Origin: Tessaracoccus bendigoensis DSM 12906
GTDB taxonomy: Bacteria > Actinomycetota > Actinomycetes > Propionibacteriales > Propionibacteriaceae
Direction: 5' to 3'
DNA: 33,099 bases
Assembly (NCBI RefSeq): GCF_900141915.1
Contig: NZ_FQZG01000050.1
Location: 1-33,099, forward strand
Shown: piece by piece, positions 7,732 through 31,104 of the stretch
How positions within the stretch are numbered: the first letter of the stretch is position 1
Layout: each line of letters opens with the position of its first letter
Made by a program: the position numbers and the translations under genes
Notes under the pieces: generated by a model
The model's database searches: none
Seen by the model: the letters and a program-made list of their open reading frames with translations, nothing else
Told to the model about the DNA's origin: nothing

Positions 7732-7805
7732 CGCGGGGTGGAGCAGCTCGGTAGCTCGCTGGGCTCATAACCCAGAGGTCACAGGTTCAAATCCTGTCCC
7801 CGCTA
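7732..7805 (+). tRNA. Initiator tRNA-fMet (CAT anticodon), copy 1
   Basis: A complete cloverleaf with anticodon CAT at 7766-7768. Three GC pairs stack at the base of the anticodon stem (GGG/CCC) and the first acceptor base C1 is unpaired against T72; both are hallmarks of initiator rather than elongator tRNA-Met. The mature sequence is identical to the second copy at 13172. The 3' CCA is not encoded here (CTA follows the discriminator base), so it must be added after transcription. A strong terminator follows directly. Confidence 0.95.
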
Positions 7806-7812
7806 CTAAATC

Positions 7813-8515: not shown

Positions 8516-8899
8516 GTGACTGAGTTGCTCACCAGGGACGCTGGCGCGCTGCACCGTGCCCTAGAGAAGGGCGGGGACGAGATCAAGGTCAGCGTCTCCC
8601 GCGAGACAGCCGAGTGGCTCTCCCAGCTGGTCGACGCCAAGGCGCGCGGCCAAGGCGTGCTCGTCACCCGTCGCAACGCTGAAGTCACCCCGGCAGAGGC
8701 CGCCGAGTTGCTGGGTATGTCCCGGCCCCAGGTCCGCAAGCTTATGGACGAGGGCAGACTCATCTTCCGCAAGGTCGGCGCTCACCACAGGGTCAAGCTC
8801 GCCTCCGTCCACGCCTTCCTAGAGGAAGAGCGGCTCCACATGGAAGCAGGCATGGAGGAGCTTTCACGCCTGCAGAACGAATTGGGTCTACTGGAGTGA
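8516..8899 (+). CDS. Helix-turn-helix antitoxin-like protein (excisionase-type DNA-binding domain)
   Basis: A 127-residue protein with an excisionase/MerR-like helix-turn-helix at about 57-84 (EVTPAEAAELLGMSRPQVRKLMDEGRL), then a charged C-terminal helix rich in Glu and Leu. GTG 8516 is chosen because GGAGGTGG lies 3 nt upstream at 8505-8512. Its stop overlaps the GTG of the PIN-domain gene (GTGA), so the two are co-translated. In toxin-antitoxin modules with this architecture the HTH protein binds its own promoter and neutralises the PIN nuclease through its C-terminal tail. The DNA-binding call is from the sequence; the antitoxin role is inferred from pairing. Confidence 0.85.
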   Translation: MTELLTRDAGALHRALEKGGDEIKVSVSRETAEWLSQLVDAKARGQGVLVTRRNAEVTPAEAAELLGMSRPQVRKLMDEGRLIFRKVGAHHRVKLASVHAFLEEERLHMEAGMEELSRLQNELGLLE

Positions 8900-13160: not shown

Positions 13161-13171
13161 AACGCAGGCGA

Positions 13172-13248
13172 CGCGGGGTGGAGCAGCTCGGTAGCTCGCT
13201 GGGCTCATAACCCAGAGGTCACAGGTTCAAATCCTGTCCCCGCTACCA
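13172..13248 (+). tRNA. Initiator tRNA-fMet (CAT anticodon), copy 2; integration site of the mobile element
   Basis: Identical to copy 1 over the whole tRNA and four bases upstream, with anticodon CAT at 13206-13208, the GGG/CCC anticodon stem and the C1-T72 mismatch. Unlike copy 1, the CCA end is encoded (13246-13248). Mobile-element genes begin immediately downstream and one of them ends inside the tRNA on the other strand, so the 3' half is very probably the attachment site (attL). The matching attR is not in the window. Confidence 0.95.
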
Positions 13249-13549
13249 CATCGGGAATCCCGGCCAACGGAAGTTGGTCGGGATTCTCTGCTTTCTTGCG
13301 AGGCAGGATGGTGGCGACGTCGACGTCGAGCAATTGTGCCGCCGCGAAGACGTCCTGAAGCGACCAAGCAACGTCGCCCCGCAGCTTCTTTCCAGCTACG
13401 GACGGGGTCACCCCGAGCGCCTCGGCCAGATCCTTGTTCCTGAGTCTGCGGCGAAACAGAGCGCTCTGAATCGTGATGCCGATCGACTCATAGATCGAGT
13501 AGCCGTCGGTCAAGCCGTTCGAGCGTGCGATCTCGTGATGCTGTGCCAT
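13205..13549 (-). CDS. Cro/CI-type HTH repressor of the mobile element, C-terminus antisense to tRNA-fMet
   Basis: A 114-residue protein with an XRE-like helix-turn-helix at about 38-58 (NKDLAEALGVTPSVAGKKLRG). It is placed at the element boundary like an immunity or maintenance repressor. The last 14 residues (VVAGTGFEPVTSGL) are encoded by the antisense strand of the tRNA; the TGA stop overlaps the anticodon loop. ATG 13549 is chosen because the protein from there matches HTH repressors and a -10-like TATTCT lies 6 nt upstream, giving a leaderless mRNA. An upstream start at 13735 would run antisense through the divergent gene and is rejected. The tail sequence depends on the integration site, so it is probably not functionally important. 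Confidence 0.8.
   Translation of the reverse strand: MAQHHEIARSNGLTDGYSIYESIGITIQSALFRRRLRNKDLAEALGVTPSVAGKKLRGDVAWSLQDVFAAAQLLDVDVATILPRKKAENPDQLPLAGIPDVVAGTGFEPVTSGL
13255..13295 (+). terminator. Rho-independent terminator after tRNA-fMet copy 2
   Basis: A 14-bp stem (GAATCCCGGCCAAC at 13255-13268 with 13273-13286) closes a GGAA tetraloop, followed by TCTGCTTTCTTGCG. It resembles the copy 1 terminator in layout and in the TCTGCTTT tail but differs in stem sequence. It lies inside the antisense repressor gene. Confidence 0.8.
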
Positions 13550-13555
13550 GGGGCC

Positions 13556-13653
13556 AGAATAGGCAAACAGTACCTGTAAGTGCAAGACGTGCAACGTGTG
13601 TTGCTTTGACACCAGAACTGGCATTAGGTGATACTCCATCCGTGGAGTATCAC
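13556..13653. promoter_or_regulatory. Divergent promoter/operator region of the element (repressor versus excisionase)
   Basis: Minus strand: TTGCAC (13580-13585) and TATTCT (13556-13561), 18 bp apart, 6 nt before ATG 13549. Plus strand: TTGACA (13606-13611) and GATACT (13630-13635), 18 bp apart, 6 nt before GTG 13642. Both transcripts would be leaderless. A perfect 11-bp inverted repeat, GTGATACTCCA (13628-13638) and TGGAGTATCAC (13643-13653), covers the plus-strand -10 and start. A smaller palindrome, GCAAC-GTGT-GTTGC (13591-13604), lies between the two promoters. These are candidate operators for the repressor. Confidence 0.6.
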
Positions 13654-13887
13654 GAGATGACACCAGCGGCATTAAATGCCAAGCCGTTCTGGTCGCCCGA
13701 CGAGGTGGCGGAGTTGCTGCCCGACGGCAACGCACGCGCGGTGTCGCGTTGGTGCAAGACCGGCAAGATTCCCGGAGCGAAGAAGCTCCCGAGTGGTCGT
13801 TGGGCTGTCCCCTCTGGCTGGGTTGGAGATCTCCTCAGCTCCGCGGGTGTCCAGGAGCCAGCTTCTCCCACGACGCCGGGGGAGTAG
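13642..13887 (+). CDS. Small excisionase-like HTH protein
   Basis: A protein of 81 residues (76 if ATG 13657 is used) with a MerR/excisionase-type DNA-binding domain: KPFWSPDEVAELLPDGNARAVSRWCKTGKIPGAKKLPSGRWAVPSGWVGDLL. Proteins of this kind act as recombination directionality factors or as transcription factors in integrative elements. GTG 13642 is chosen because a -10 box ends 6 nt before it and there is no ribosome binding site for the internal ATG; the choice is tentative. It starts the rightward operon and is divergent from the repressor gene across 92 bp. The next gene begins 5 nt after its stop. Confidence 0.75.
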   Translation: MEYHEMTPAALNAKPFWSPDEVAELLPDGNARAVSRWCKTGKIPGAKKLPSGRWAVPSGWVGDLLSSAGVQEPASPTTPGE

Positions 13888-13892
13888 TCGGA

Positions 13893-14204
13893 ATGTCGGT
13901 GTGGGCTGTGTCGTGGGCGTTGGGGGCGAAGGTTCCTGATGCGGTGTCGCGTTCGGTGTTGGTGGCCCTTGGCCATCTCGCTTCTGATCGTGATGAGGTT
14001 CGCGTCCCGGCTCAGGTGCTGCGCGATGTGGCTGTCTGCTCCACGGCCCGGGTGGGGCAGGCGTTGCGTGAGTTGGAGGACTGCGGTCTGGTCCAGCTCC
14101 TGGCGGCATCGTCTCAGTGGTTCGCGCTTCGTCTGCTGATCCCGGACATGTTCACGGGGATCGCGGACGCGCTGCCTGTCGAGGTTCCGAAGGTGGCGCT
14201 GTGA
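13893..14204 (+). CDS. Small winged-helix protein 1 of a four-gene series
   Basis: A 103-residue protein opening MSVWAVSWALGAKVPDAVSRSVLVALGHLASDRD, followed by the helix-turn-helix AQVLRDVAVCSTARVGQALRELEDCGLVQLL, the pattern of a DnaD-like or helix_turn_helix_36 winged helix. It shares the W-A-V and VK/VP motif and helix layout with the large gene at 14709 and with the gene at 14443. ATG 13893 follows the excisionase-like gene by 5 nt and its TGA overlaps the GTG of the next gene. It probably binds DNA; a role in replication or control of the element is inferred from its relatives and position. Confidence 0.75.
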   Translation: MSVWAVSWALGAKVPDAVSRSVLVALGHLASDRDEVRVPAQVLRDVAVCSTARVGQALRELEDCGLVQLLAASSQWFALRLLIPDMFTGIADALPVEVPKVAL

Positions 14205-14443
14205 GTATCGATGTGACTACCGATCGGGTGCCTACCGCCGTCACGAGGCGCGTGCAGGCGGTTCTGTATGGGCTGGCCGTGGATGGCTGGGTGCAGGGGA
14301 CTGCGGTCGAGGTGGCCCCGCACGTCGGGTTGTCGGTGGTTCTGGTGGCTGAGGCGTTGGCCTGGCTGGAGACCGCGGGGATGGTTCGGTTCGAGCTCGT
14401 TGATGGGCTCCCTGGATTCCAACTCTTGGAAGGTGGCAACTGA
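14201..14443 (+). CDS. Small winged-helix protein 2 of the series
   Basis: An 80-residue protein starting at GTG 14201, overlapping the previous stop by 4 nt. Residues 10-70 (TAVTRRVQAVLYGLAVDGWVQGTAVEVAPHVGLSVVLVAEALAWLETAGMVRFEL) form a compact winged-helix pattern in register with its neighbours: helix, gap with Gly, second helix, recognition helix, then strand. It lacks the N-terminal W-A motif of the other three and is the most diverged. It ends with TGATG overlap into the next gene. Function is not known beyond probable nucleic-acid binding. Confidence 0.65.
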   Translation: MSIDVTTDRVPTAVTRRVQAVLYGLAVDGWVQGTAVEVAPHVGLSVVLVAEALAWLETAGMVRFELVDGLPGFQLLEGGN

Positions 14444-14712
14444 TGGCTGTGCATGCGACTGCGTGGGCGATGTCGGTGAAGGTTGATGATCCTGTTGAGC
14501 GCCTCGTGCTGCTCGGGATTGCTGAATGCGTGGGGGAGGACGGGGCCGGCTACGTGAGCGGCTGGATCCCAGGGTTCGCTTGCGTGTCCCCGGAGCAGGT
14601 TCAGGCGACGGTGGCGGTGCTTGCCAGCGCCGGCGCGCTGGAGCGCCTGGGTGAGCATCCTCGCGGGCAGCTGGTCCGGCTGAACCTCGACTGGGAAGGG
14701 ACACCCGGGTGA
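14443..14712 (+). CDS. Small winged-helix protein 3 of the series
   Basis: An 89-residue protein whose ATG overlaps the previous TGA. It begins MAVHATAWAMSVKVDDPVERLVLLGIAECVGEDG, aligning with MSFWAVNWAAEVKLPVLSEKLVLLLLANFANDDD of the large downstream protein. The recognition segment (SPEQVQATVAVLASAGALERL) follows at the same distance. The stop overlaps the next GTG start by 4 nt. It may be a duplicated, stand-alone copy of the initiator's N-terminal domain that competes for or helps at the same DNA sites; this is inference. Confidence 0.65.
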   Translation: MAVHATAWAMSVKVDDPVERLVLLGIAECVGEDGAGYVSGWIPGFACVSPEQVQATVAVLASAGALERLGEHPRGQLVRLNLDWEGTPG

Positions 14713-15893
14713 GTTTCTGGGCCGTGAACTGGGCAGCGGAGGTGAAGCTGCCGGTGTTGTCGGAGAAGCTGGTCCTTCTCCTGCTGGCGAACTTCGCCAA
14801 CGATGATGACGAGGCCTGGCCTCGGATCGACACGTTGATGGACATGACGTGCAAGTCGAAGTCCACGGTCCACCGACTTCTGCAATCCCTGGAAGCGCAG
14901 GGCTATATCACCCGGATGGGCACCCGTGAGTACCGCGAGAACTCGCGTACTGGCTCGGTGATGAGCGTGTCCGTGATCCGGTTGAACGTGCCCGATTCGG
15001 TGCATCGTTCCCGCCGGAAGATGGGTCCGCGCCCTGAGGTCACTCAGCCCAACATGCCTAGTCAGATGGTGAGTCCCAAAAATGAGACTCACGGGAACGG
15101 GCCCATCGACTCTGAACCCGACTTCGATGAAGTGCCTAGTGAGGCCGTGAATCCCATTTTTGGGACTCACGGGGAGTTCGAGTCCGTGAGTCCCACCAGT
15201 GGGACTGAGGGTGTCCCACCAGTGGGACTCACATATAAGGAAGAACCACCATTTAGAACCACCAACCCAACCCCCCTGCCCCCCAGCGACGACTCCGAGG
15301 TCGACGAGCTGGGCGACGGGCCGGTCGGGTCGGGTCGGGTGTCGAACGACGAGAACGAGACGTTGCCGCCTGGGCCGACGGCCGAGCAGTGGCTCGTGCT
15401 GCGTGACTGCCTCCCCAGGCCGATGCAGGCCCTCGACGGGCCGACCGCGCTGCGAGTCGTCGGGCTCCTGGTCGAGCGGCTGGAGGCTGGCTGGAGCCCG
15501 GACCGGATCCACGACACGCTGGCCGGGAACGCGCTGCCACCGAACGTGCGGTCGCTGGGCGGTCTGGTGCTGCACCGGGTCGGGGCGATCCCGGTCGACG
15601 GCGCTCCGCGCCGCCTGACGGCTGTGCCCCGCCCTGCCGCTCCGCAGCCGCCCCAGTTCCGGCCGTTGTGGATGGTCGAGAAGAAGCGCGCCGAGCTGAC
15701 CGGCTCGGAGGATGCTGGCCGTCCCCGTGAGTGGTTCATGGCCACCTACCCGGGCCCCTCGACGGTGCTGGCTGATGTCGCGTTGGGGGAGTACCTCCGC
15801 GCTGAACTGCGCAACCCTGCTGCACCCGGCCGGAGCGGTGTCAGTGCTGCGCGAGACGATGACCAGGACTCTCCTCTAGCGAAAGGTTCCTGA
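14709..15893 (+). CDS. Replication-initiator-like winged-helix protein with origin-like repeats in its gene
   Basis: A 394-residue protein starting at GTG 14709. Residues 1-100 are a DnaD-like/helix_turn_helix_36 winged helix (FWAVNWAAEVKLPVLSEKLVLLLLANFAND, then SKSTVHRLLQSLEAQGYITRM). Residues about 121-215 are a low-complexity, probably disordered linker. A second conserved helical block lies at about 226-285 (WLVLRDCLP, WSPDRIHDTLAGNALPPNVRSLGGLV). This domain order, with the palindromic repeats in the linker-coding part, matches plasmid and ICE initiators of the RepA_N kind, where the origin lies inside rep. No primase or helicase motif is present. It is translationally coupled to three smaller relatives. 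Initiator function is inferred, not shown. Confidence 0.75.
   Translation: MSFWAVNWAAEVKLPVLSEKLVLLLLANFANDDDEAWPRIDTLMDMTCKSKSTVHRLLQSLEAQGYITRMGTREYRENSRTGSVMSVSVIRLNVPDSVHRSRRKMGPRPEVTQPNMPSQMVSPKNETHGNGPIDSEPDFDEVPSEAVNPIFGTHGEFESVSPTSGTEGVPPVGLTYKEEPPFRTTNPTPLPPSDDSEVDELGDGPVGSGRVSNDENETLPPGPTAEQWLVLRDCLPRPMQALDGPTALRVVGLLVERLEAGWSPDRIHDTLAGNALPPNVRSLGGLVLHRVGAIPVDGAPRRLTAVPRPAAPQPPQFRPLWMVEKKRAELTGSEDAGRPREWFMATYPGPSTVLADVALGEYLRAELRNPAAPGRSGVSAARDDDQDSPLAKGS
15069..15092. repeat. Origin-like palindromic repeat 1
   Basis: A 24-bp imperfect palindrome: left arm GTGAGTCCCA, right arm GAGACTCAC, with an AT-rich centre. It encodes SPKNETHG in the linker of the initiator-like protein. Confidence 0.8.
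15147..15170. repeat. Origin-like palindromic repeat 2
   Basis: Same 24-bp design: left arm GTGAATCCCA, right arm TGGGACTCAC. It starts 78 bp after repeat 1 and encodes NPIFGTHG. Confidence 0.8.
15186..15209. repeat. Origin-like palindromic repeat 3
   Basis: Left arm GTGAGTCCCA, right arm TGGGACTGAG, starting 39 bp after repeat 2. It encodes SPTSGTEG. Confidence 0.8.
15209..15232. repeat. Origin-like palindromic repeat 4
   Basis: Left arm GGGTGTCCCA, right arm TGGGACTCAC, starting 23 bp after repeat 3 and abutting it. Immediately to the right is an AT-rich stretch (ACATATAAGGAAG and CCATTTAGAA, 15231-15256), unusual in this GC-rich gene and suitable as a DNA-unwinding element. Confidence 0.8.
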
Positions 15894-15894
15894 G

Positions 15895-16890
15895 ATGTCT
15901 CGTCGTATCCTCGCCGCGTTCACTGCGGCCCTCACCCTCGCCGCCGGCGCGCTGGTCGCCACGGCACCGTCGGCTGCCGCCGATGTGTACACCGAGCCCG
16001 GCTATCACGTCGTCAACGGGCGCGAATGGCGCACCACCTGCGAGCCCTACTCCCAGACCAAGCGGTGCCGTACCGAGATCAAGGCCTCGACCGTGATCCG
16101 TACCGGTGCCCGCTACGTGCAGACCACCGGATGGGTGTTCAACAACCTCACCTACCTCCCCTCGGATGCCCGCCTCTGGGCAGGCAACCCGCTCGCCCGG
16201 ACGGGGCAGTGGACCGCCTCCGATGGTCGGCTGTGGCGCACCGAATGCAACACCCCCGCCACCGGCCGTAACGGCTGCCGCTCCTACAGCATGGTCGACG
16301 TCGTCGCAGCGGTGCGCAGCACGCGTGGCACCAGCTTCGTCAAGCAGCGCCAGTGGGTCCTCAACAACATCGTCCAGTTCACCACCCCCACCTCGGCAGT
16401 CACCCCGACGCCGAAGCCCACCCCCACCCCGACGCCTACCCCGACGCCGGTCGGCCCGTACGACGCCCGCGTCGGCATCGACGACCAGGACACCTTCGCG
16501 AAGTCACTGGTCGAGTGGACCAACAAGGCCCGCATCGAGGACGGAGTGAAGGTCGGCTACGGCAACGACGGTAAGGCAGTCGCCTACGACCCCACGCTCA
16601 ACGCCGAAGCCCTCAAGTGCGCCCAGTCGAACCTCGCCCACGGCTCGCTCGACCACTCCCTGCCGGGCTGCGTGGCAGGCGACGGAGTGTACGGCGAGAA
16701 CCTCGCTGGCACGACCATCGGTCGCCCGGTCAGTGTGCTTGTCGACGGCTGGATGAAGTCCCCGGGCCACTACAGCTTGATGACAAGCGCTCTCAACGTC
16801 GGATTCGGCGGGGCGTACGCGTGTGACGCCGAGTGGTGTGTCGCGGTGATCAAGGCGGAGCACGACTGGTCGTTGTATCCGGGCAACTAG
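15895..16890 (+). CDS. Secreted CAP-domain (SCP/PR1-like) protein with a duplicated N-terminal module
   Basis: A 331-residue exported protein. A signal peptide ends near residue 29 (APSAAA-D). Residues about 42-90 and 111-162 are two related modules with the pattern GRxWRTxC, a second Cys, and W-V-x-NN. A Pro-Thr linker spans about 167-188, then a CAP domain covers 195-322 with His254 (LDHS), Glu268 (GENLAG) and His292 (WMKSPGHYSLM), and further Cys residues. CAP proteins are extracellular and act on lipids, peptidoglycan or partner proteins in ways that differ by member. ATG 15895 begins one base after the initiator-like gene stop. Lying between replication and conjugation genes, it may remodel or label the cell surface during mating; this is inference. 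Confidence 0.88.
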   Translation: MSRRILAAFTAALTLAAGALVATAPSAAADVYTEPGYHVVNGREWRTTCEPYSQTKRCRTEIKASTVIRTGARYVQTTGWVFNNLTYLPSDARLWAGNPLARTGQWTASDGRLWRTECNTPATGRNGCRSYSMVDVVAAVRSTRGTSFVKQRQWVLNNIVQFTTPTSAVTPTPKPTPTPTPTPTPVGPYDARVGIDDQDTFAKSLVEWTNKARIEDGVKVGYGNDGKAVAYDPTLNAEALKCAQSNLAHGSLDHSLPGCVAGDGVYGENLAGTTIGRPVSVLVDGWMKSPGHYSLMTSALNVGFGGAYACDAEWCVAVIKAEHDWSLYPGN

Positions 16891-16957
16891 TTCGCGGTCT
16901 CCGAAGTCTCGGGGGCCGACCTCAACCCAAACCCATGGAAAGGGGAAGTCGAGAACA

Positions 16958-19900
16958 ATGAGACTTCGTAAAGTCGTAGCAACACTGGTTGCTGCGCTCG
17001 TGCTGCTCGTGTCGCTGACCGCGACCCGAGCCAACGCCTGGACGGCGGTGGAGGGCTCCGGCCCTGCCGGCGGCTACCAGTCGATGACCGGTGTCGGGGA
17101 AGGCGCCTGGTCCACCAGGAGCCTGACCACCTTCTCCACCTACCTGATGCCCGGCGGCGCTGGCCGCTGGATCTGCATCGACCCACTGGAACGCGTGCCG
17201 TCGGTGATCTCCACCAACACCACCCAGGTCTCCAACCCCAAGGTCGCCTGGATGATGCACACCTACAGCCTCACCAAGGACCCCTACCAGGCCGCAGCGC
17301 TGGCCTACTGGGTCAAGCGCCAGTACCCCTCCAGCGGCGGGGAAGAAGCCGCCCGCCAGGTCGCCGCGAACGAGCCGACCGACTGGGCTGCCATGCAGAA
17401 CTACATCACCGCGATGGATGCCCAGGCCAACAAGTACGCCGGCCCCTACGAGCTGGTGATGAACCTCACCGAGACCGGCGCCACCCCAGTGGTCCGCTCA
17501 ACGCTCAGCAAGCAGCCGCTGAAGTTCCTCACCCCGGCCGACGGGCCCCGGTTCGAGACCAACCCGCAGGTCCGCCTCACCTTCGGCAACGCAACGTTCA
17601 CCGACGGGCAGACCTCGAAGATCGTCGACGCTAACACCGCCTTCACATACCGCACTACAGACCGGACCAAGCCGGTCACCGCGACCGCCTCGGTCGCCGG
17701 ACTCCCCGGCACCACCATGACGCTCTACGCAGAGGCCGGCTTCCAGCGGATGATCGGACGCGGCATCCCCACCAACGACCCGCTGAGCGCCACCGCAACC
17801 ATCGAAGCCTTCCAAGAGACGCCGGTGATCGAGACGGTGTCCTCGGCTGTAGCGGGCATCAAGATCGGCGAGCCGATTACTGACTTGATCCGCGTCACAC
17901 GGGGCAAGCCGAACACGTCGATGGTCGTCCCGGCGGTGCTGTATGGCCCGTTCGACTCCAAGCCGACACAGCGGCAAGATGCCCCGTCCGGCGCGCCGGT
18001 CGCGTTCCGCACCGATGTGACGATCCGCCTCGACGCGCGCGGCGACGGTCAGGCGACGTCGGCAGGGTTCACGCCGACGAAGCCGGGTTGGTACACGTGG
18101 GATGTCAACTGGGCTGGCGACGCGAACAATGCGGCGTTCAACCACGAGTTCGGTGTCCCGGCGGAGACCGGCTTCATGTCGGTGTTCACGCCGACCATGA
18201 CCACCGTGTCATCGGCCGCCAACGGTGAGCTGAAGGTCGGAGACCAGGTTACCGATGAGCTGAAGATCACTGGGGGACGTCCCGGTGCGACGGTGCAGGT
18301 CGATGTGGTGCTCTACGGCCCGGTCGCGGATGAGCCGGTCGAGGCCGCGACCGCACCGGCCGGCACCCCAGAAGCGACCCGAGAGACGCTGTCGGTGAAG
18401 CTGGACGCCCAAGGCAATGCCACCGTCACGTCCACGCCGTACACGGTCGAGGAGACCGGCTGGTACTCCTACACCGGCACGGTGCGCGCCGACGAGTCGC
18501 ATGAGGCGTTCAGCCACAATTACGGCGTCGCGTCGGAGACGGGGCACCTGCGCAAGCGCACCCCGGAGATCTCCACGGTCACCTCGGCCGTGGCAGGGAT
18601 CCGGGTCGGGGACCCGATCCGTGACGAGATCACCGTTACCGGTGGCCGTCCCGGCTCGACCGTGATCGTCGACGCCACCTTGTACGGGCCAGTGGCCGAG
18701 CAGCCCGTCGAGGCCGCGACCGCACCTGAGGGTGCTGCGGTGGCATGGTCGGGTGAGATCTCGATCACCCTCGACGCGCAGGGCAACGGCACCGGCACCA
18801 CCGCCGACTACATCCCGGCAGCTGCCGGCTGGTACTCCTACACCGGCACGCTCCGCGGCGACACCTCACACGAGACGTTCGTCCACAACTACGGCGTGAC
18901 CTCCGAAACCGGCCAGGTGCTGCGCTATCAGCCGGAGGCGACCACGCAAACCTCCGACACCCTCATCGACGGGCCCGGGGAGCTGACCGACACGATCGAC
19001 GCCACCAACGGCAAGCCCGGCGCCGCATTCAGCGGCACCTCGACGCTGTTCGGCCCGTTCGAGGTCGATCCGGTGGGCCAGCCGCTGAACCCGGACACCG
19101 ACCCCGTCGTCGGGATCTCGACCTTCGAAGGCTCGTTCGACGATGAGGGCAACGCCACTGTCGTCTCCACTGCGCAGACGGTCTCCGAGGCCGGCTACTA
19201 CGTGTGGGCTGAGCAGATTGCTGCTGATGTGAATAATGAGGAGTCGCAGTGGCCCGATGCCGTCACCTCGGAAACCAGCCTGTGGCTCGATATGGAGGTG
19301 GCCTCGCAGGTGTCGGCGCAGCTGGCGCTGGTGGGTCACACCATCACCGATGACGTCACCGTCACTGGTGTGAAGTCCTCGATCGGTGACACCCCGATCG
19401 ACTACACCCTGACCGGCACCCTCTACGCCGCCCCTGCGGTCGAGGGCTCGTGTGAGGCTGTCGACTGGGCCGATGCTGCTGTGGCTGATTCATTCACTGA
19501 GCAGCTTGCTGCTGGTGATGTGCCGGCCGACGGGACCTGGTCCCTGACCGGGCTCGGCGAGCACACCGTCAAGGAACTGGGATGCCTCACCTACGGCTAC
19601 GAGCTGACCGCTCAGGCCGGTGAGGATGCCATCACCGCCATCCATGCCCCTGGGCATGTGACCCAGACCACGTTGGTCACGCAGCCGGAGATCGAGACCA
19701 AGGCCCACGACAAGGCGGACGGCGATCAGCACCTCCACGGCGCGACCGAGCAGGTCATCGTCGACGTGGTGCCCTACGTCGGTCTCGTCCCCGGCAAGGA
19801 ATACACCGTTGAGGGCATCCTCATGGACAAGGCAACCGGTGAGCCCCTGTCGCCGGAGATCACGGCGACGACCACCTTCACGCCGACCGAACCGTCGGGC

Positions 19901-20890
19901 CAGGTCGAGCTGGAATTCGTCGTGAGCGTGGCGCACATGTACAAGACGATCGTGGTGTTCGAAACCTTGTTCCATGAGGGTCGTGAGATCGCGATCCACG
20001 CCGACATCGACGATGAGCAGCAGACGATCTGGTGGACGAAGATCGGCACCACCGCCACCGACAAGGCTGACGGCGATTCGTTCCTGAACAATGCCGGCGA
20101 CAAGCAGGTCGTTGACGTGGTGGCCTATCAGGGCCTCATCCCCGGCAAGACCTATCTGATCGAGGGTGAGTTGATGGACAAGGCCAGCGGTGAGCCATTG
20201 CTGCTGGCGTCGAAGGCGTCGACGACGTTCACCCCGACCACCCCCGATGGGGAGGTCGAGCTGGAGTTCACCGTCGTGGCCGATCATCAGGGCAAGGTCC
20301 TGGTGGCGTTCGAAACCGTCAGCTTGGAGGGTAACACGGTGGCGGTCCATGCCGACATCAACGACGTGGCCCAGACTGTGTACTGGCCCGATCTGCGCAC
20401 GTCTGCGACCGATCAGGCCGACGGCGACAAGCAGCTCCTGGCTGCTGGCGGCACCATCGTCGACAAGGTCACCTACACCGGTCTCCAGCCGGGGGAGACC
20501 TACACGGTGCGCGGTGAGCTGATGGACAAGGCCACCGGCGAAGGCACCGGCATCCTCGGTGAGGCCAGCTTCACCGCTGAGACCGCCGACGGCGTGGTCG
20601 ACGTGCTGTTCACCGTCCCGGGCGGCTACGCGAACAAGACCCTGGTCGTGTTCGAGACCCTGTTCCACGGCGATGTTGAGATCACCGCGCACGCGGACCT
20701 CAAGGACGTCGAGCAGACGGTGACCATCGCCCGCACGTCGGGCGGTGGGATCAGCACCGGTGACGTGCCCGAGCTGGGTACTGCTGGCGGTGGCCCCGCG
20801 TGGCCGCTGATCGCGGTCGGCGCGGTGGCTCTGCTCGGCGCCGCGGGCGTGGGTGCCCGCACCCTGCGCACCCGAAAGACGGGTGCGTAA
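16958..20890 (+). CDS. Large multi-domain surface adhesin with VaFE repeats
   Basis: A 1310-residue surface protein. Residues 1-27 are a signal peptide. Residues 28-200 look like a thioester (TQXA-like) head: Cys73 in WICIDP and Gln111 in YQAAALAYW are candidates for the thioester pair. Four Ig-like repeats of about 120 residues start near 284, 411, 535 and 658 (VSSAVAG, then GKP or GRPG, then LYGP). A diverged module follows at about 775-905. Three VaFE repeats start near 911, 1030 and 1147 (ATDKADGD, then VAFET or VVFET), likely isopeptide-bonded. The C-terminus has a membrane helix and RTRK tail, but the preceding motif is VPELGTAG, not LPXTG. The ribosome binding site is GAAAGGGG. Probably a stalk-mounted mating-pair adhesin; the role is inferred from position. 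Confidence 0.88.
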   Translation: MRLRKVVATLVAALVLLVSLTATRANAWTAVEGSGPAGGYQSMTGVGEGAWSTRSLTTFSTYLMPGGAGRWICIDPLERVPSVISTNTTQVSNPKVAWMMHTYSLTKDPYQAAALAYWVKRQYPSSGGEEAARQVAANEPTDWAAMQNYITAMDAQANKYAGPYELVMNLTETGATPVVRSTLSKQPLKFLTPADGPRFETNPQVRLTFGNATFTDGQTSKIVDANTAFTYRTTDRTKPVTATASVAGLPGTTMTLYAEAGFQRMIGRGIPTNDPLSATATIEAFQETPVIETVSSAVAGIKIGEPITDLIRVTRGKPNTSMVVPAVLYGPFDSKPTQRQDAPSGAPVAFRTDVTIRLDARGDGQATSAGFTPTKPGWYTWDVNWAGDANNAAFNHEFGVPAETGFMSVFTPTMTTVSSAANGELKVGDQVTDELKITGGRPGATVQVDVVLYGPVADEPVEAATAPAGTPEATRETLSVKLDAQGNATVTSTPYTVEETGWYSYTGTVRADESHEAFSHNYGVASETGHLRKRTPEISTVTSAVAGIRVGDPIRDEITVTGGRPGSTVIVDATLYGPVAEQPVEAATAPEGAAVAWSGEISITLDAQGNGTGTTADYIPAAAGWYSYTGTLRGDTSHETFVHNYGVTSETGQVLRYQPEATTQTSDTLIDGPGELTDTIDATNGKPGAAFSGTSTLFGPFEVDPVGQPLNPDTDPVVGISTFEGSFDDEGNATVVSTAQTVSEAGYYVWAEQIAADVNNEESQWPDAVTSETSLWLDMEVASQVSAQLALVGHTITDDVTVTGVKSSIGDTPIDYTLTGTLYAAPAVEGSCEAVDWADAAVADSFTEQLAAGDVPADGTWSLTGLGEHTVKELGCLTYGYELTAQAGEDAITAIHAPGHVTQTTLVTQPEIETKAHDKADGDQHLHGATEQVIVDVVPYVGLVPGKEYTVEGILMDKATGEPLSPEITATTTFTPTEPSGQVELEFVVSVAHMYKTIVVFETLFHEGREIAIHADIDDEQQTIWWTKIGTTATDKADGDSFLNNAGDKQVVDVVAYQGLIPGKTYLIEGELMDKASGEPLLLASKASTTFTPTTPDGEVELEFTVVADHQGKVLVAFETVSLEGNTVAVHADINDVAQTVYWPDLRTSATDQADGDKQLLAAGGTIVDKVTYTGLQPGETYTVRGELMDKATGEGTGILGEASFTAETADGVVDVLFTVPGGYANKTLVVFETLFHGDVEITAHADLKDVEQTVTIARTSGGGISTGDVPELGTAGGGPAWPLIAVGAVALLGAAGVGARTLRTRKTGA

Positions 20891-20893
20891 CCA

Positions 20894-21667
20894 ATGAAGC
20901 ACGTCGGGCAGCACCGTGTGCCCCCCAACACCAGCCTGGACTCGAGCCAGGCCGGTGCTGCCCGGCGTCCCTGGGCGACTCGGCTGGCCTGGTGGCTGGT
21001 CGGGTTGCTGCTGGTGGTGAGCGTCACGGCCACGGTCGCGGCGTTCACCACCGCCCCCACCCCTGAACCTGTGGCACCCGAGGGCCTAGCCGTCGTCGAC
21101 GGCACGGTGCAAGCCCCCGCCGCTGAACCCCTCCACAACCCCACACCGGCCCTGACCGGCCCCACCGCCGTCCCCACAGCATCCTCACCCAGCGGCGGGC
21201 CGGCGGCTGCACGCGGGTCTCGTAGGGTGCAGATCCCTGCTCTCGGGGTGGATGCCCCGATCGGAGCTGATCTGCGTCGCGGGAGCAGTGGAGATTGGAT
21301 TCCCCCGGACCATGCGATCGGCGCATGGCGCGAGTCGGCTGACCTGTCCGCCACCGTCGGGGTGACGATGCTGGCTGGGCATGTGTGGGTCGGCCAGCGC
21401 CCTGGTGTGCTGATCGATCTTCGCCACATCACCCCCGGCAACCTGATCACGGTCGTCGACGGCGACACCGTCCAGCACTTCCTGGTCACCGACCGTTACG
21501 AGGTGGCCTCCGATGCGCTGCCGGAGTCGGTGTGGGGATCGTCCACCGGCGATCGGGGTCTGGTGCTGGTGACCTGCGCCGGTGAAGGGATCACCCGCGA
21601 CGGGCGGCGCGTGTGGTCGCGCAACCTCATTGTTGAAGCTTCTCTCTACACGAAACCTCTCACCTAA
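20894..21667 (+). CDS. Sortase, class E/F-like
   Basis: A 257-residue membrane-anchored transpeptidase. A hydrophobic helix at about 31-51 is followed by a Pro/Ala/Thr-rich linker to residue 108 and the sortase barrel (RRVQIPALGVDAPIG to the end). Catalytic residues are visible: His163 (LAGHVW), Cys228 (VLVTCAG) and Arg243 (VWSRNLIV). The gene begins 3 nt after the adhesin stop, so this enzyme is probably dedicated to attaching the adhesin to peptidoglycan. Because the adhesin lacks LPXTG, the enzyme should have altered specificity, or the adhesin stays membrane-anchored. The exact class is uncertain; lack of an N-terminal extension typical of class C pilin polymerases argues against pilus assembly. 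Confidence 0.9.
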   Translation: MKHVGQHRVPPNTSLDSSQAGAARRPWATRLAWWLVGLLLVVSVTATVAAFTTAPTPEPVAPEGLAVVDGTVQAPAAEPLHNPTPALTGPTAVPTASSPSGGPAAARGSRRVQIPALGVDAPIGADLRRGSSGDWIPPDHAIGAWRESADLSATVGVTMLAGHVWVGQRPGVLIDLRHITPGNLITVVDGDTVQHFLVTDRYEVASDALPESVWGSSTGDRGLVLVTCAGEGITRDGRRVWSRNLIVEASLYTKPLT

Positions 21668-21680
21668 AGGAGAACCCGAA

Positions 21681-21884
21681 ATGGACCAACTCAAGAGCAT
21701 CATCACGCTGCTGTCGACCTTCGTGTCGGTGGCCGGCGGCTTGTGGCTGGCGTGGGGTGTGATCAGCCTCGGCTTCGCGATCAAGGAGCAGGAAGGCTCC
21801 GGTATGCGTGGCGGCATCCTCCAGATCGTCGGCGGCGGGCTTGTCCTGGCCGGCGGCGTGTACCTGGGCACGCTCGGCGGCTGA
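21681..21884 (+). CDS. Small two-helix membrane peptide, VirB2/TrbC pilin-like
   Basis: A 67-residue protein with two hydrophobic helices (about 7-33 and 46-63) separated by a short charged loop (KEQEGSGMRGG). This is the shape of VirB2-type pilins and of the small membrane peptides at the head of Gram-positive conjugation operons. ATG 21681 has an AAAGGAGA ribosome binding site. It precedes the VirB6-like gene by 14 nt. Assignment rests on size, topology and position, since no sequence motif is diagnostic. Confidence 0.7.
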   Translation: MDQLKSIITLLSTFVSVAGGLWLAWGVISLGFAIKEQEGSGMRGGILQIVGGGLVLAGGVYLGTLGG

Positions 21885-21898
21885 GCTGAGGGGCTGAG

Positions 21899-22756
21899 GT
21901 GTCGTTCGCGCGTGACGTGCTGGAGCCGATCCTGCGCGATATGTCGGGAGGGTTGGGGTCGATGTTCGGCCTCAACCTGACTGACGTGCTCCAGTCACCG
22001 GAGGAGTACTCCGCGTCGACGGCGGCGCTGATGGTGACGATCTCCGACACGATCGTGATGCCGGCCGCGACGCTGATCCTGGTGGTGCTGTTCATGCTGG
22101 AGCTCGTGCGGATCGGGATGCGCACCGACGGCGACGGGGAAACGTTCGCCAAGACGGCGTTCTTCACCCTGGTGAAGTTCGTCATGCTCAAACTGATCTT
22201 CGAGTCCACCCATGTGGTGATGCAGGGCATCTACGCCCTGTTTGCCGAGATGGCCAGCCAAGCCAACACGATCACTGCGGTGACCACCGGTGTGGGCAGC
22301 GACCAGCTCAACGGGTTCCTCACGTCGGTGGACGACATGGACTGGCTCGGGCAGACGGTGTTGATCATCTTCATGCTGCTGGCGTGGCTGGTGAACAAGG
22401 GCGCGATGATCGCAGCCCTGGCGCTGGTGGTGGTCCGGTTCGTCAAGCTGTACATCTTCGCCGCGTTCGCACCGGCACCGATCGCGATGTTCGCCACCCA
22501 GGAGACCCGCACCTTCGGCGTGGGGTTCCTGCGTAACTATGCCGCGATCGTCCTCCAAGCCCTGGTGCTGGTGTTGGCGTTCGCGATCTATCAAACCGTG
22601 ACCAGCACCTGGGCCGGTAGCGCGTTTGCCAACCTCGACGGCAACGCCGTCACCGCTGCACTGTCGATCAGCGGCAGCTTCATCATGATGGGCGTCGTGC
22701 TGGGCATGGTCGTCCTCGGATCAGGAAGGATCGCCAGTGAGCTACTGGGCAACTAG
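21899..22756 (+). CDS. VirB6/TrbL-like polytopic membrane protein of the conjugation machine
   Basis: A 285-residue protein with about five or six membrane helices (near 50-70, 88-105, 150-168, 170-195, 215-235, 255-280). The pattern, with an amphipathic N-terminus and a conserved VNKGAMIAALALVVVRFVKLYIFAAFAPAPIA core, resembles TrbL/VirB6 proteins that form the inner-membrane channel for DNA export. It starts at GTG 21899 after a GAGGGG element. Its 3' end overlaps the lipoprotein gene by 20 nt. Family assignment comes from topology and context; it is secure as a conjugation membrane subunit, less so as a strict VirB6 orthologue. Confidence 0.78.
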   Translation: MSFARDVLEPILRDMSGGLGSMFGLNLTDVLQSPEEYSASTAALMVTISDTIVMPAATLILVVLFMLELVRIGMRTDGDGETFAKTAFFTLVKFVMLKLIFESTHVVMQGIYALFAEMASQANTITAVTTGVGSDQLNGFLTSVDDMDWLGQTVLIIFMLLAWLVNKGAMIAALALVVVRFVKLYIFAAFAPAPIAMFATQETRTFGVGFLRNYAAIVLQALVLVLAFAIYQTVTSTWAGSAFANLDGNAVTAALSISGSFIMMGVVLGMVVLGSGRIASELLGN

Positions 22757-23441
22757 AACCCGCCACACCACCCTAGCGACGCTAGCGGGGGCAGTGGTCA
22801 TAGTGGGGTTAGTGTCGGGGTGTGGTGCTCCGGCACGGGACCTCAACGAGGTCCGCCAAGACGCGCTCGTTGAGATGGAGCAGTTGCGGTTCGCGGAGGA
22901 CTACCACGACTCTCTGAAGACGATCGAACGCTCGGTCAACATCGACGAGATCGACAACGTGCTGCGGATCGCCCGCGACACCGACGCCGAGAACCAGGAC
23001 GTGTTCTGGGGCTGCGCGCAACGCGGAACCGGGCTGCTCGACGGAGCCACCCTGAGCGCGATGACCGACGGGGTCAAGGAGTTCAACGAGTTCGAGCTGA
23101 CGCTGGGGCGTAACCAGTCAGCGTCGCTGGACTTGGTCGGCACCGCTGAAATGATCGGGCAGATGGAGATCTCGCAGGGCGATCAGTGGCTGATCGACCA
23201 CGCCGGCACCGTGACCGGGTGGGAAGCGACGTTGGATGAGTCGATCGCCAACCGGCGAATCGAACTGCACGAGGGACGTCAGATGGTCTATGTGTATGGC
23301 CCCGATCGGTGCCACGTGCCGTTCACGTTGACGCTCACCACCACGGGGGAGGGCCCCACTGACCATGAGGCCACCTTGCTGGTCCAGGAGTCCGGCGCAC
23401 TGCTGATCGACGTGTTCGGTTCCTCGTTCGACATCAAGTGA
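22737..23441 (+). CDS. Conjugation-operon lipoprotein
   Basis: A 234-residue lipoprotein. An N-terminal basic and hydrophobic signal ends in the lipobox LVSGC, with Cys29 as the acylated residue. The mature part begins with a charged helical region (ARDLNEVRQDALVEMEQLRFAEDYHDSLKTIERS), then a mixed domain with two Cys residues. I recognise no enzyme motif. It starts at GTG 22737 inside the end of the VirB6-like gene and is followed by prgI after 15 nt. It probably forms part of the outer side of the translocation complex, the place held by VirB7- or VirB8-like parts in other systems; this is inference from location. Confidence 0.75.
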   Translation: MSYWATRTRHTTLATLAGAVVIVGLVSGCGAPARDLNEVRQDALVEMEQLRFAEDYHDSLKTIERSVNIDEIDNVLRIARDTDAENQDVFWGCAQRGTGLLDGATLSAMTDGVKEFNEFELTLGRNQSASLDLVGTAEMIGQMEISQGDQWLIDHAGTVTGWEATLDESIANRRIELHEGRQMVYVYGPDRCHVPFTLTLTTTGEGPTDHEATLLVQESGALLIDVFGSSFDIK

Positions 23442-23456
23442 GCCGGGTGGATTGCT

Positions 23457-23852
23457 GTGGCGTTGGAGATGAGGGTCTACGAGGAGCTGACCTCGATCGA
23501 GCCGAAGGTGATGGCCGGGTTCACGTGGCGCCAGTTGTTGGCGGTCGTGGTCGTCGGTGCCGTCACGATCGGGTTGGTGGTGGCTCTGTTCCTGGCTGGG
23601 ACCACGGACTTCAGCATCGTGTCGTGGATCGTGATCCCGATCGCGGTGCCGTTCGCCGCGTGGGGCTGGGTCAAACCGTTCGGGATGCGGTTCGAGAAGT
23701 ACGCCGGGCATGTGCGGCGGTTCCTGGCCCGCCCCACCAAGCGCCTGTATGCCAATGACGCGCTGTGGCAGGCGCACCAAAGAGAGTCGTTTGAAGGGAA
23801 GAGGCCTCGTGTTCCTCGGAAACAAGAGCAAGTCGAAGAAGCCGGCCACTAA
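23457..23852 (+). CDS. PrgI family protein (VirB3-like)
   Basis: A 131-residue protein with the PrgI pattern: a short N-terminus (MRVYEELTSIEPKVMAGFTWRQL), two closely spaced membrane helices (28-48 and 54-72) and a conserved basic tail (WVKPFGMRFEKYAGHVRRFLARPTKRLY). PrgI proteins in Gram-positive conjugation clusters precede the VirB4 ATPase and correspond to VirB3. The start is GTG 23457. Its last 44 nt overlap the VirB4 gene, supporting coupled translation and a tight complex. Confidence 0.88.
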   Translation: MALEMRVYEELTSIEPKVMAGFTWRQLLAVVVVGAVTIGLVVALFLAGTTDFSIVSWIVIPIAVPFAAWGWVKPFGMRFEKYAGHVRRFLARPTKRLYANDALWQAHQRESFEGKRPRVPRKQEQVEEAGH

Positions 23853-26241: not shown

Positions 26242-26261
26242 ACGCACTCCAAAGGGTTGGG

Positions 26262-28028
26262 ATGTACAGGACCAGGGGTGCGGGCCGGCTCACCGGCCAT
26301 CAGCGGGGGACCGCGCTGACCCGCTCGGCGCGGGTGATCAGCCGTACCCGAGGCGAGGTCCACTCCCTGGCCGCGACCGCCCGCGCCACTGAACGCAAGG
26401 TTGCTGCCGCTGGTGATCTGGACCCTGACCAGCAAACCAACTCGGCTGTGGTGTCTCGCAGCAAAGAGATCGCGTTGCAGAAGGTCAGCTACAAGCTGGC
26501 CGGGAACCCGCCCAAGACGTCGATCGGCCGGACCGCGAACCGGGCAGGGGTCGGCGCAGTCCAAGCCACCGGCTCGGAGCTGAAGAACGCACTTCGTGAC
26601 GGTGGGCGGCTCGACATCGACGACGCCGCCGTGTCCGCGGCGAGGTGGGCCAACCGCCACGGCACCGCCCTGACCGTCAAGGTCGGAGCCAAGACGCTTG
26701 TGTTCGGCGGCAAAGCCGGGATCAAGACCTCCTCGCTTGTCGGGCACGCCACGGTCGGCGCCGTCCGCTACTCCGCGATCGGCACCATCCACGCCGCACG
26801 GCTCGGCGCCACCGGCGCCGCAGCGGCTGGCCGGCTGACCGGGCAGGTCGCCACTCGAGGAGCACGCCTCACTGGCCGCGCCGCCACACGGGGCACCAAC
26901 ACTCTCCGCAAAGCGGGAGCGGCAGGCTGGAAGCGCGGCACGGCCGCAGCCCAGCGGGCGAAAGCTGCGGCTGTCAGTGGAGCCCGCGCAGCTGCGGTAA
27001 TGGTCAAGGCTGCCGCGAGCGCGATCGTCGCCGCCGTCTCCGGCTCCACAGTGCTGCCCGTCGTGGTTGGCATCATCGCCGTGGTCGCTCTGCTGGTGGC
27101 GATCCTGCCGGGGTTCATCACCGGCGCCGGCCATGAGCAGCACCGTTCAGAAACCCTCTCGGCGGTGTGCATCTCGTCTCCCTACGAGCTGGGCCCGGTC
27201 CAGCCGCACGTCGAGCAGGCTACGGTGCTGTTGGGCACCCTCCACGGGGTTGAGGTGATCGGCGGCTGGCGTCCAGGCAACACCTACGACGTTGAAGGCC
27301 ATCCGGCCGGGTTGGCTGTTGACCTGATGACCGACCGCGCGAAGGGCGATGCGGTGGCCGCCTACGCTCAAGAGCACGCGGCCGAGCTGGGAATCAAGTA
27401 CATCATCTGGTGGCAGAAGATCTGGTCGGTCGAACGCGCCGGTGAAGGGTGGCGGCAGATGGAGGACCGTCGCTCCGATTCGGCCAACCACCTCGATCAC
27501 GTTCACATCTCCTTCAACCCCGACCCCGGCACCGGCGGCTTGGAGACCCTCATGGCGGAGGCGTGTGGCACCGGCGCCGACGGCGCGCCAGCGGTCAACA
27601 AGGCGGCAGCAGAATCGATCGGGGGCTGGGCCAACCCGACCCCGTCGACGAGGGTCACATCCCCGTACGGGATGCGGACCCATCCGATCACCGGGGTGTA
27701 CAAGCTCCACACCGGCGCCGACTACGGCGGCGGCTGTGGGGTGCCCATCAACGCGGCCGCGTCCGGGACGGTCTCCTCGGTGTCCCCCAACCGCGCCTAC
27801 GGCAACCTCATCACCATCGACCATGGCGCCGGTATCGTCACCCGCTACGCCCACTCCTACAAGAGCGAGATCTATGTCCGTGCCGGCGATACCGTCGTGG
27901 CCGGGCAGCGCATCGCCGCCATGGGCAGCTCCGGCTACTCCACCGCCTGCCACCTCCACTTCGAAGTGAAAGTGGGCGGCGGGTTCGTCGATCCCGTCGC
28001 GTTCCTGCAAGCCAGAGGTTTGGGATGA
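26262..28028 (+). CDS. Two-headed peptidoglycan hydrolase (M15-like plus M23 domains) of the conjugation machine
   Basis: A 588-residue protein with three parts. Residues 1-262 are Ala/Gly/Arg-rich, without membrane segments, and probably cytoplasmic. A membrane helix lies at about 263-288. Outside are two different metallo-hydrolase-like domains. The first, about 300-420, has GWRPG, His347-Asp354 (HPAGLAVD) and DHVH at 412-415, the zinc pattern of D-Ala-D-Ala peptidase-fold (ARB_07466-like) domains. The second, 467-585, is an M23/LytM endopeptidase with His483-Asp487 (HTGAD) and His564/His566 (HLHFEV). It should open the wall for the mating channel, like VirB1-type hydrolases. It lies between virB4 and virD4. 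The long basic N-terminus is unusual and could bind nucleic acid or the ATPases. Confidence 0.9.
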   Translation: MYRTRGAGRLTGHQRGTALTRSARVISRTRGEVHSLAATARATERKVAAAGDLDPDQQTNSAVVSRSKEIALQKVSYKLAGNPPKTSIGRTANRAGVGAVQATGSELKNALRDGGRLDIDDAAVSAARWANRHGTALTVKVGAKTLVFGGKAGIKTSSLVGHATVGAVRYSAIGTIHAARLGATGAAAAGRLTGQVATRGARLTGRAATRGTNTLRKAGAAGWKRGTAAAQRAKAAAVSGARAAAVMVKAAASAIVAAVSGSTVLPVVVGIIAVVALLVAILPGFITGAGHEQHRSETLSAVCISSPYELGPVQPHVEQATVLLGTLHGVEVIGGWRPGNTYDVEGHPAGLAVDLMTDRAKGDAVAAYAQEHAAELGIKYIIWWQKIWSVERAGEGWRQMEDRRSDSANHLDHVHISFNPDPGTGGLETLMAEACGTGADGAPAVNKAAAESIGGWANPTPSTRVTSPYGMRTHPITGVYKLHTGADYGGGCGVPINAAASGTVSSVSPNRAYGNLITIDHGAGIVTRYAHSYKSEIYVRAGDTVVAGQRIAAMGSSGYSTACHLHFEVKVGGGFVDPVAFLQARGLG

Positions 28029-28079
28029 GAAAGTGTCACACCTGCCCGGTAGCGTCACCTGGTGACGAAAGGAGCCGGC

Positions 28080-28274: not shown

Positions 28275-28287
28275 ACCGGAGGACGTC

Positions 28288-29997: not shown

Positions 29998-30001
29998 AGC
30001 C

Positions 30002-30586: not shown

Positions 30587-30622
30587 ATCTCCGGCTTCTC
30601 CTTGGAGTGGCTCCACAGCTTT

Positions 30623-30656: not shown

Positions 30657-30689
30657 ATTCGGTTGCTCTGTTCGAAGTCTGTCAGGTCA

Positions 30690-31097: not shown

Positions 31098-31104
31098 TGT
31101 GTTT

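Follow-up and report, generated by a model that had tools for sequence, protein, structure and literature searches.

The question raised by this locus is whether a conjugative element can carry a replication origin inside the gene of its own initiator. The locus lies in a stretch of 33,099 nucleotides from Tessaracoccus bendigoensis DSM 12906, below called the window, which is one contig (NZ_FQZG01000050.1) of a genome of 4,131,430 bases (G000; G codes stand for genomes, L codes for loci or stretches, and P codes for homologous proteins). An earlier note on this DNA had described a cluster of palindromes in a winged-helix gene, and had proposed that the gene is initiator-like and holds an intragenic origin. 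The comparison of relatives lends good support to this core proposal, and we conclude, with a probability of about 80%, that the open reading frame (ORF) at 14709–15893 (+ strand) is a replication initiator gene, hereafter rep, with the origin inside its own linker-coding segment. The array is unique in the genome and under selection at the DNA level, its terminal geometry and the adjoining AT-rich DNA are conserved, and the linker co-varies with the N-terminal domain. These observations suggest that the element may pass through a stage of autonomous replication.

The dyad array inside rep

The rep gene, as given in the ORF list, opens with a GTG start codon and encodes 394 amino acids. Pfam finds an HTH_36 winged-helix domain at residues 18–67 (14760–14909, + strand), which is the presumed dyad-binding part. 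It is followed by a repeat-bearing linker and, as defined by alignment, by a conserved C-terminal domain (about residues 222–300; 15372–15608, + strand) that is without a Pfam match and presumably recruits host replication proteins. The segment for linker residues 121–175 contains four dyads of the form GTGAGTCCCA-N4-TGGGACTCAC, with start spacings of 78, 39 and 23 bp. These are the putative iteron GTGAGTCCCAAAAATGAGACTCAC (dyad 1, 15069–15092), GTGAATCCCATTTTTGGGACTCAC (dyad 2, 15147–15170), GTGAGTCCCACCAGTGGGACTGAG (dyad 3, 15186–15209) and GGGTGTCCCACCAGTGGGACTCAC (dyad 4, 15209–15232), the first two with one mismatch to GTGAGTCCCANNNNTGGGACTCAC and the last two with two mismatches. Dyad 4 starts 23 bp past dyad 3 and is out of frame with it. 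All positions and spacings reported before were recovered, with the qualification that the dyads are imperfect. Translation reproduced the three repeat peptides described earlier, SPKNETHG, NPIFGTHG and SPTSGTEG, which are encoded by the in-frame repeats, while the fourth dyad, in a different frame, encodes VPPVGLT.

The AT-rich stretch noticed directly after the palindromes is present as well, and coincides with the 40 bp in which the gene has its lowest GC content and stability (15226–15265; stability scan computed from stacking energies). This segment begins 5 nt away from the last dyad centre, contains TATAAGGAAGAACCA, and is a putative unwinding element. In addition, the hexamer CCTAGT occurs on the + strand at 15057–15062 and at 15135–15140, 24 nt ahead of the centres of dyads 1 and 2, respectively. 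The single-strand folding of 15060–15300 is strong (z −5.6), because of the dyads.

A chance origin of the dyads was rejected by shuffling of the window, a whole-genome scan, and synonymous shuffling of the gene. None of 100 dinucleotide shuffles of the window gave a match to GTGAGTCCCANNNNTGGGACTCAC at ≤3 mismatches. At the same threshold there are four matches in the whole genome, all inside rep, and none 5′ of the gene. For the synonymous shuffles, codons were permuted 200 times among synonymous positions, which keeps the protein and the codon usage fixed, and the result was scored with a repeated-dyad statistic (6-bp half sites, spacer 0–6, up to two mismatches). The observed score was reached by 0/200 shuffles for the window gene and for its relatives in G027, G038, G024, G019, G061 and G060. 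Phage lambda gene O, used as positive control, also gave 0/200, with three of its four annotated iterons recovered. The controls were 31 other ORFs of the element copy in genome G029 (>450 nt, selected by a codon-position rule, first 1500 nt, 60 shuffles), none of which stood out, the fewest shuffles reaching the score being 8/60. Further genes put through this test were those of plasmid pCmus45274 (0/200), phage Laila gene 25 (0/200), phage Gingerbug gene 44 (1/200) and an S. xanthii plasmid (2/200). A palindrome-only statistic, without the requirement of a repeat, separated less well (window 2/200, G067 21/200, two control ORFs 3/200). Both the synonymous shuffles (0/200 in seven of eight genes) and the out-of-frame position of the last dyad support the view, put forward in the earlier note, that DNA-level selection dictates the linker.

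Array geometry and linker co-variation among relatives

A protein search returned 34 homologues of the window protein, and in a contig scan a near-identical locus was found once, in a metagenome-assembled genome of the Propionibacteriaceae (protein 99% identical). In the family, 16 of 198 genomes were positive at E 1e-8 or better, and a sample of the order gave 11 positives among 293 genomes at 1e-15, all from the same family. The genes fall into two classes with a common C-terminal domain. Class 1, with the HTH_36 N-terminal domain, is present in G000, G019, G024, G027, G029, G038, G041, G060, G061 and G067, from two genera, and class 2, with a different N-terminal domain, in G052, G054 and G055. 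The class-2 proteins of G055, P0032 and P0034 (the last two metagenomic) had no Pfam match near the cut-off. Arrays with a 15-bp period were found in the class-2 genes of G052 and G055 (both 0/200). Soon after the class-2 repeat region, L013 and L027 show long stems (TGGTTGGGAGACTGACGTCTCCCAACCA and relatives), with shorter stems in L014 and L015, and these sit about where class 1 has its AT-rich block. Homologues from searches with the G061 (2) and G067 (59) proteins stand outside the tests described here.

The DNA-level comparison covered eight class-1 genes (window, G027, G038, G024, G019, G061, G060 and G067), from which the genes of G029 and G041 were excluded as near-copies of the window. 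G024 and G038 are near kin, as are G060 and G061, so the array geometry represents fewer than eight independent cases. The spacings were 78-39-23 in the window, 57-30-23 in G027 and G038, 57-57-30-23 in G024, 33-57-33-57-30-23 in G019, 99-23 in G067, 57-57-57-30-23 in G061, and 30-23 in G060. The terminal spacing is thus 23 bp in all eight genes and, as 23 is not divisible by three, the reading frame through the last dyad is shifted in every case. The arrays of the seven relatives occupy the same position in the gene as that of the window and differ from it in site sequence, for example GTCCCAC-NN-GTGGGAC in the window, TGACAC-NN-GTGTCA in G027, TGTCAC-NN-GTGACA in G061, and CTACGTCA-NNNN-TGACGCAG in G019. 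A variant of TATAAGGAAGAACCA follows the last dyad in 8/8 genes, in G067 some 12 nt further on. The GC content at third codon positions in the 16 codons past the last dyad is 0.25–0.44, compared to gene means of 0.67–0.78, and in six of the eight genes the least stable 40 bp begin within 0–23 nt of the last dyad centre.

The CCTAGT element is equally regular in its position, as all 12 occurrences in the eight genes lie exactly 24 nt ahead of a dyad centre. Pro-Ser pairs at this −24 nt site were encoded by CCTAGT in 12 of 12 cases, compared to 0 of 23 for those elsewhere in the same genes. The element precedes 12 of the 20 dyads outside the last two of their array, and never the last two. The other eight have CCTTGT (three) or CCTGGT (one) at −24, or neither (two in G019, one in G061 and one in G060). 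Of note, CTAG is scarce in the window (20 seen versus 104 expected from base composition), so that CCTAGT at −24 is kept at the codon level despite CTAG avoidance.

The earlier note had suggested a test of whether the palindromes vary together with the N-terminal winged helix. Such co-variation was seen at the protein level for 29 proteins, and eight loci were compared as DNA. The alignment comprised the window protein with 33 homologues, all of the 34 but P0014, which is without the N-terminal part. Five of its 34 rows were dropped, since their linker could not be delimited or their C-terminal part was missing. With domains sliced by alignment columns, and many pairs not independent, linker identity correlated with N-terminal identity when C-terminal identity was held constant (partial r 0.52, 0/999 permutations as high), whereas its partial correlation with C-terminal identity, N-terminal identity held constant, was −0.02. 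Natural recombinants illustrate this pattern. P0018 and P0019 have C-terminal, N-terminal and linker identities of 1.00, 0.70 and 0.35, whereas P0009 and P0012 are identical in the N-terminal domain (1.00) and nearly so in the linker (0.99), with a C-terminal identity of 0.68. In other pairs with the same N-terminal domain repeats were gained or lost, for example P0010/P0012 with a linker identity of 0.66.

Arrays were also found among more distant HTH_36 genes. A class-level sample gave 29 further loci, 27 of them long enough, and arrays were present in 6/27 (≤1/60 shuffles; ORF starts chosen mechanically). L049 has an HTH_36 gene with GGTCAATCTGACC-type dyads directly 5′ of an ORF that reads by eye as the start of a DnaB helicase. 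The HTH_36 genes of L054, L061 and L063, from other genomes of the class, have GGCCGCAC-type dyads in common, and their arrays end with spacings of 23 or 24 bp. The ORF after L061 reads by eye as a DUF2637-like membrane protein.

Known origins, a possible mechanism and rival explanations

The window protein matches HTH_36 (pfam13730) at 6.7e-12, and in PHROG it matches phrog_1032 ('replication initiation', 6.8e-19) and phrog_391 ('O-like', 3.6e-14, residues 6–138). At E ≤0.01 the only Pfam matches were HTH_36, HTH_IclR, MarR_2 and HVO_A0261_N. Pfam gave no match to RepA_N (PF06970) at the N terminus and none to Phage_rep_O, and a scan of NCBIfam gave nothing over the cut-off. The matches in a sequence search of solved structures were winged-helix regulators only, with a best E of 0.0097. 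With tblastn the protein had no match in plasmids or in phages (the latter at 1e-5), although proteins of relatives did match, and P0018 matched annotated phage O proteins. Viral contigs searched with two relatives gave no match. The earlier note had likened rep to the RepA_N-type initiators. On this point the reading changes, since Pfam does not detect the RepA_N domain and the N-terminal domain is HTH_36 with replication-initiation and O-like PHROG matches, and membership of RepA_N was rejected on the basis of Pfam. Instead, the HTH_36 and O-like matches make lambda O and the chimeric initiator of pPR9 the closer models.

Gene O of lambda contains four iterons with inverted repeats of 18 bp, next to an AT-rich region of 39 bp (PMC6022878). 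Both genes have four dyad-type sites within the coding sequence, iterons in lambda O (about residues 117–145) and putative iterons in rep (residues 121–175). The last annotated iteron spacing in the lambda record is likewise 23 bp, the N-terminal part of the window protein is similar to the O-like PHROG families, and in the window, too, the dyads are followed by an AT-rich block. The two differ in that the C-terminal domain of the window protein is not matched to O, no P-like loader follows rep, the upstream spacing in the window is wider and variable, and rep lies on a conjugative element. We know of no CCTAGT element in lambda.

For the staphylococcal plasmids, pSK41 Rep is described (PMC5703833) as a protein with an N-terminal winged helix that binds four boxes in the middle of the gene, a linker encoded by the origin, and a host-specific C-terminal domain that binds DnaG. 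In pPR9 an HTH_36 N-terminal domain and a different origin are joined to the pSK41 Rep C-terminal domain; the N-terminal domain and origin are exchanged as a block of ~500 bp, the C-terminal domain stays constant, and the mini-replicon is functional (PMC5703833). The window protein has the same Pfam N-terminal domain (pfam13730) as pPR9, and in its family, too, the N-terminal/linker unit is swapped relative to the C-terminal domain, as seen at the protein level. The likeness concerns the N-terminal domain and the pattern of exchange; the setting differs, pPR9 being a Firmicutes plasmid and not an integrated actinobacterial element. With pSK41 the window shares an N-terminal winged helix and the placing of putative sites near the middle of rep, flanked by two conserved domains, a likeness of the sites in position only, but the RepA_N domain is not detected in the window protein, and the window boxes are GC-rich dyads.

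A mechanism can be sketched from these comparisons. Dimers of the N-terminal winged helix would bind the dyads as iterons, as the co-variation supports, and the array would bend or wrap the DNA and open the AT-rich block 3′ of the last dyad, which fits the position and composition of this block. By analogy with pSK41 Rep, the C-terminal domain may recruit the host helicase or primase. Theta-type replication of the excised circular element would then begin once the operon holding rep is switched on. As rep lies ahead of the transfer genes and beside a divergent regulator, replication could be coupled to the induction of transfer. The origin and the N-terminal domain would travel as one cassette, and its exchange would let elements change their incompatibility type while keeping the host-facing C-terminal domain. 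The primase and ParA genes on the G029 copy of the element were counted in favour of replication.

Several findings weigh against an intragenic origin in rep. No helicase-loader (P-like) gene adjoins the 3′ side of rep, and no DnaA box was found near it. In G024 and G060 the least stable DNA lies elsewhere in the gene. The palindromes, whose absence from homologues the earlier note had regarded as decisive, are present as arrays in most relatives, but the class-2 gene of G054 has none by the repeated-dyad statistic, and the array of G067 is weak (6/200). The same statistic found no array in phage mEp021 gene 13 and plasmid pAC5, nor in 21 of the 27 sampled HTH_36 genes, many of which resemble ordinary regulators. 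In pCmus45274 a distant homologue (30% identity) lies ahead of transfer genes, with an array spaced 36-30, without the 23, and this plasmid also has a conventional RepA_C initiator, so the rep homologue need not be the initiator there. Finally, a PF00589 search, to which serine recombinases are invisible, found no integrase inside the G029 copy, and in G019, G060 and G061 the ~30 kb downstream of rep gave no homologues of type IV secretion system (T4SS) genes.

The dyads could instead be intragenic operators, at which the winged-helix protein blocks or attenuates transcription into the adhesin, sortase and T4SS genes, without a role in replication. Winged helices are common as repressors, rep lies ahead of co-directional adhesin, sortase and transfer genes, with the next ORF beginning 1 bp past its stop codon, and pCmus45274 has the gene ahead of transfer genes despite its own RepA. 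However, no copy of the dyad is present 5′ of rep or elsewhere in the genome, another regulator already lies divergent to rep, and the phage matches are to replication families. Moreover, arrays of 3–7 sites that end in a fixed geometry and have AT-rich DNA on one flank resemble origins, and the best-preserved array (G061) belongs to a locus in whose downstream region no T4SS homologues were found. We regard operators as unlikely. The origin could also be ancestral and inactive, now serving as binding sink or incompatibility determinant, while the element is copied by rolling circle from oriT or passively together with the chromosome. T4SS elements are assumed, few exceptions aside, to be non-autonomous, and a relaxase can play the part, according to a survey (PMC3218068); the missing PF00589 integrase in the G029 copy and the absence of T4SS homologues near rep in three relatives would fit as well. 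Yet rep of the window and of G029 differ by 1 nt in 1185, and the reading frame, dyads and AT-rich block have been kept under DNA-level constraint in two genera, so we consider an inactive origin quite unlikely.

Dyad clusters are also typical of centromeres, and the array might be parS-like, with the protein as adaptor of the ParA of the element, which is encoded by the G029 copy and also in the G027, G038 and G067 stretches. This seems improbable to us: in G029 some 29 kb separate parA from rep, and parA has another gene as its neighbour (39125–39817), ParA was not found in the fetched stretches of G019, G052, G060 and G061, and both the AT-rich block and the replication-family match would be left unexplained. 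The remaining explanation, a peptide repeat in the linker selected at the protein level with the DNA repeats as by-product, would account for three of the four repeats being in frame and encoding similar peptides. It is already contradicted by the out-of-frame last dyad in all eight genes, by the destruction of the arrays by synonymous shuffles in seven of them, and by the use of CCTAGT for Pro-Ser at −24 nt (12/12 versus 0/23 elsewhere), and has next to no probability left.

The array would work like the lambda and staphylococcal intragenic origins. Among the literature matches listed, none describes an intragenic origin in an actinobacterial conjugative element, most subscription journals lying outside the coverage. 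In the accessible part of the survey by Ghinet et al. (2011), the integrative and conjugative elements (ICEs) of T4SS type in actinobacteria have a type IV coupling protein, VirB4 and a TrwC relaxase, an initiator is not required for the T4SS types, which are assumed to be non-autonomous with few exceptions, and the list of replication families shows no HTH_36 (PMC3218068). For Propionibacterium freudenreichii, circular elements of 35.6 kb (JS25) and 24.9 kb (JS12) with TrwC, TraC, TraG, TrbL and ParA domains are described in the available text, for which the authors found no origin; the listed coverage is 800x for the JS25 element versus 400x for the chromosome, and 400x for the JS12 element versus 250x for each of two chromosome versions (PMC5644110). 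Compared by description only, these ICEs and the JS12 and JS25 elements share the T4SS gene set with the window element, and differ from it in that their published descriptions, as far as available, mention no initiator.

If present, the intragenic origin would give such conjugative elements a plasmid-like copying stage, and the analysis yields a specific gene and a 200-bp segment as candidate origin. A more general possibility, which we put forward tentatively, is that actinobacterial T4SS-type elements carry a theta replicon whose specificity resides in an exchangeable one-gene cassette of winged helix, iterons and unwinding element, combined with a specificity-independent CCTAGT signal at −24 of the upstream iterons that would be read by a conserved host or element factor. 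Its likelihood is lowered by the absence of T4SS homologues near rep in three relatives. If true, it would overturn the assumption that these elements do not replicate autonomously, and the missing origin of the circular elements in P. freudenreichii might be of this kind. The natural recombinants would allow the recognition by the winged helix to be read, with CCTAGT as a further conserved signal.

The conjugative element and its surroundings

That rep is part of a conjugative element, as the earlier note had proposed, is supported by the T4SS genes, by a relaxase in G029, and by repeats of a tRNA-Met gene. The tRNA-Met (CAT) at 13172–13248 (+ strand) forms the left boundary. A 37-bp piece of its 3′ part is found again at the right end in G029, a one-contig genome that matches positions 13168–32757 of the window at 99.9%, with two insertions in G029. 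There the element measures ~47 kb, with the tRNA-Met at 8646–8722 of the joined stretch and the exact 37-bp repeat at 55556. A divergent ORF at 13205–13735 (− strand) reads by eye as a helix-turn-helix (XRE-like) regulator, and its relatives are divergent to rep in 6/7 further class-1 relatives and not found in G019. On the same strand as rep follow, in this order, genes for a CAP-domain protein, a 1310-amino-acid T-Q ester bond protein and a sortase (all Pfam), a weak TrbL/VirB6-like protein (21899–22756, +; below the Pfam curated cut-off), a VirB4/TraG-like ATPase of the T4SS (23710–26241, +), an M23 peptidase, and a VirD4-like coupling protein (28288–29997, +), the ATPase and the coupling protein named by domain match. 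The window ends before the relaxase, which in the G029 copy is a TrwC (MOBF) protein with helicase domains, accompanied by a DnaG-type primase and ParA. VirD4 and VirB4 in the window, TrwC in the G029 copy, and the tRNA-Met attachment repeats are the hallmarks of T4SS-type ICEs. The element does not fit an actinomycete ICE of the FtsK type (pSAM2 type), which would have a single FtsK/SpoIIIE-type Tra and a RepSA, RepAM or Prim-Pol protein, as the transfer genes found are T4SS genes and rep has no RepAM or Prim-Pol match in Pfam (RepSA is outside the models tested).

The gene order (regulator, rep, TrbL, VirB4, M23, VirD4, relaxase, ParA) is preserved in G027 and G038, and G067 has homologues of VirD4, relaxase and ParA. 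In these three genomes a tyrosine integrase (PF00589) lies 24–38 kb from rep. Transfer genes near rep are therefore found in some relatives and not in all, given the loci of G019, G060 and G061, which may be remnants or other elements. In G061 only the adhesin and sortase genes follow rep. In G061 (L037, L038) and G060 (L046) rep is found beside non-T4SS genes, with similar large ORFs (1108 and 1107 amino acids) further downstream, so rep and its array have been retained where transfer genes are not close by.

Several smaller features were noticed in and around the element. Three small tandem ORFs lie 5′ of rep (13893–14712); each reads by eye as a single winged helix, with nothing above the Pfam cut-off, and the first is similar to the rep N-terminal domain, at 35% across 69 residues. 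The region 16958–21667, placed between rep and the T4SS genes, encodes the 1310-residue protein, in which T-Q ester bond domains were matched three times, and the sortase; both have homologues in G061 and G067 and are possibly a mating adhesin or pilus. In the joined stretch of G029, 19140–20407 and 54140–55407 (L028, L030) hold two pairs of transposase ORFs, alike in their lengths and beginnings and IS3-like by eye, one of which sits in the transfer-region insertion that is absent from the window copy. Inside the element, a gene for an extracytoplasmic function (ECF)-type sigma factor (32043–32642, − strand; region 31105–32642) overlaps an ORF of 313 amino acids that, guessing from its position, may encode the anti-sigma factor. 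Outside the element, a second tRNA-Met gene (7732–7806) shares its 3′ part with that at 13172–13248, and the 5.4 kb between them, which encode a PIN domain protein, an alpha/beta hydrolase, a weakly PapA-like protein and DUF6320, could be either a remnant or another element stacked there.

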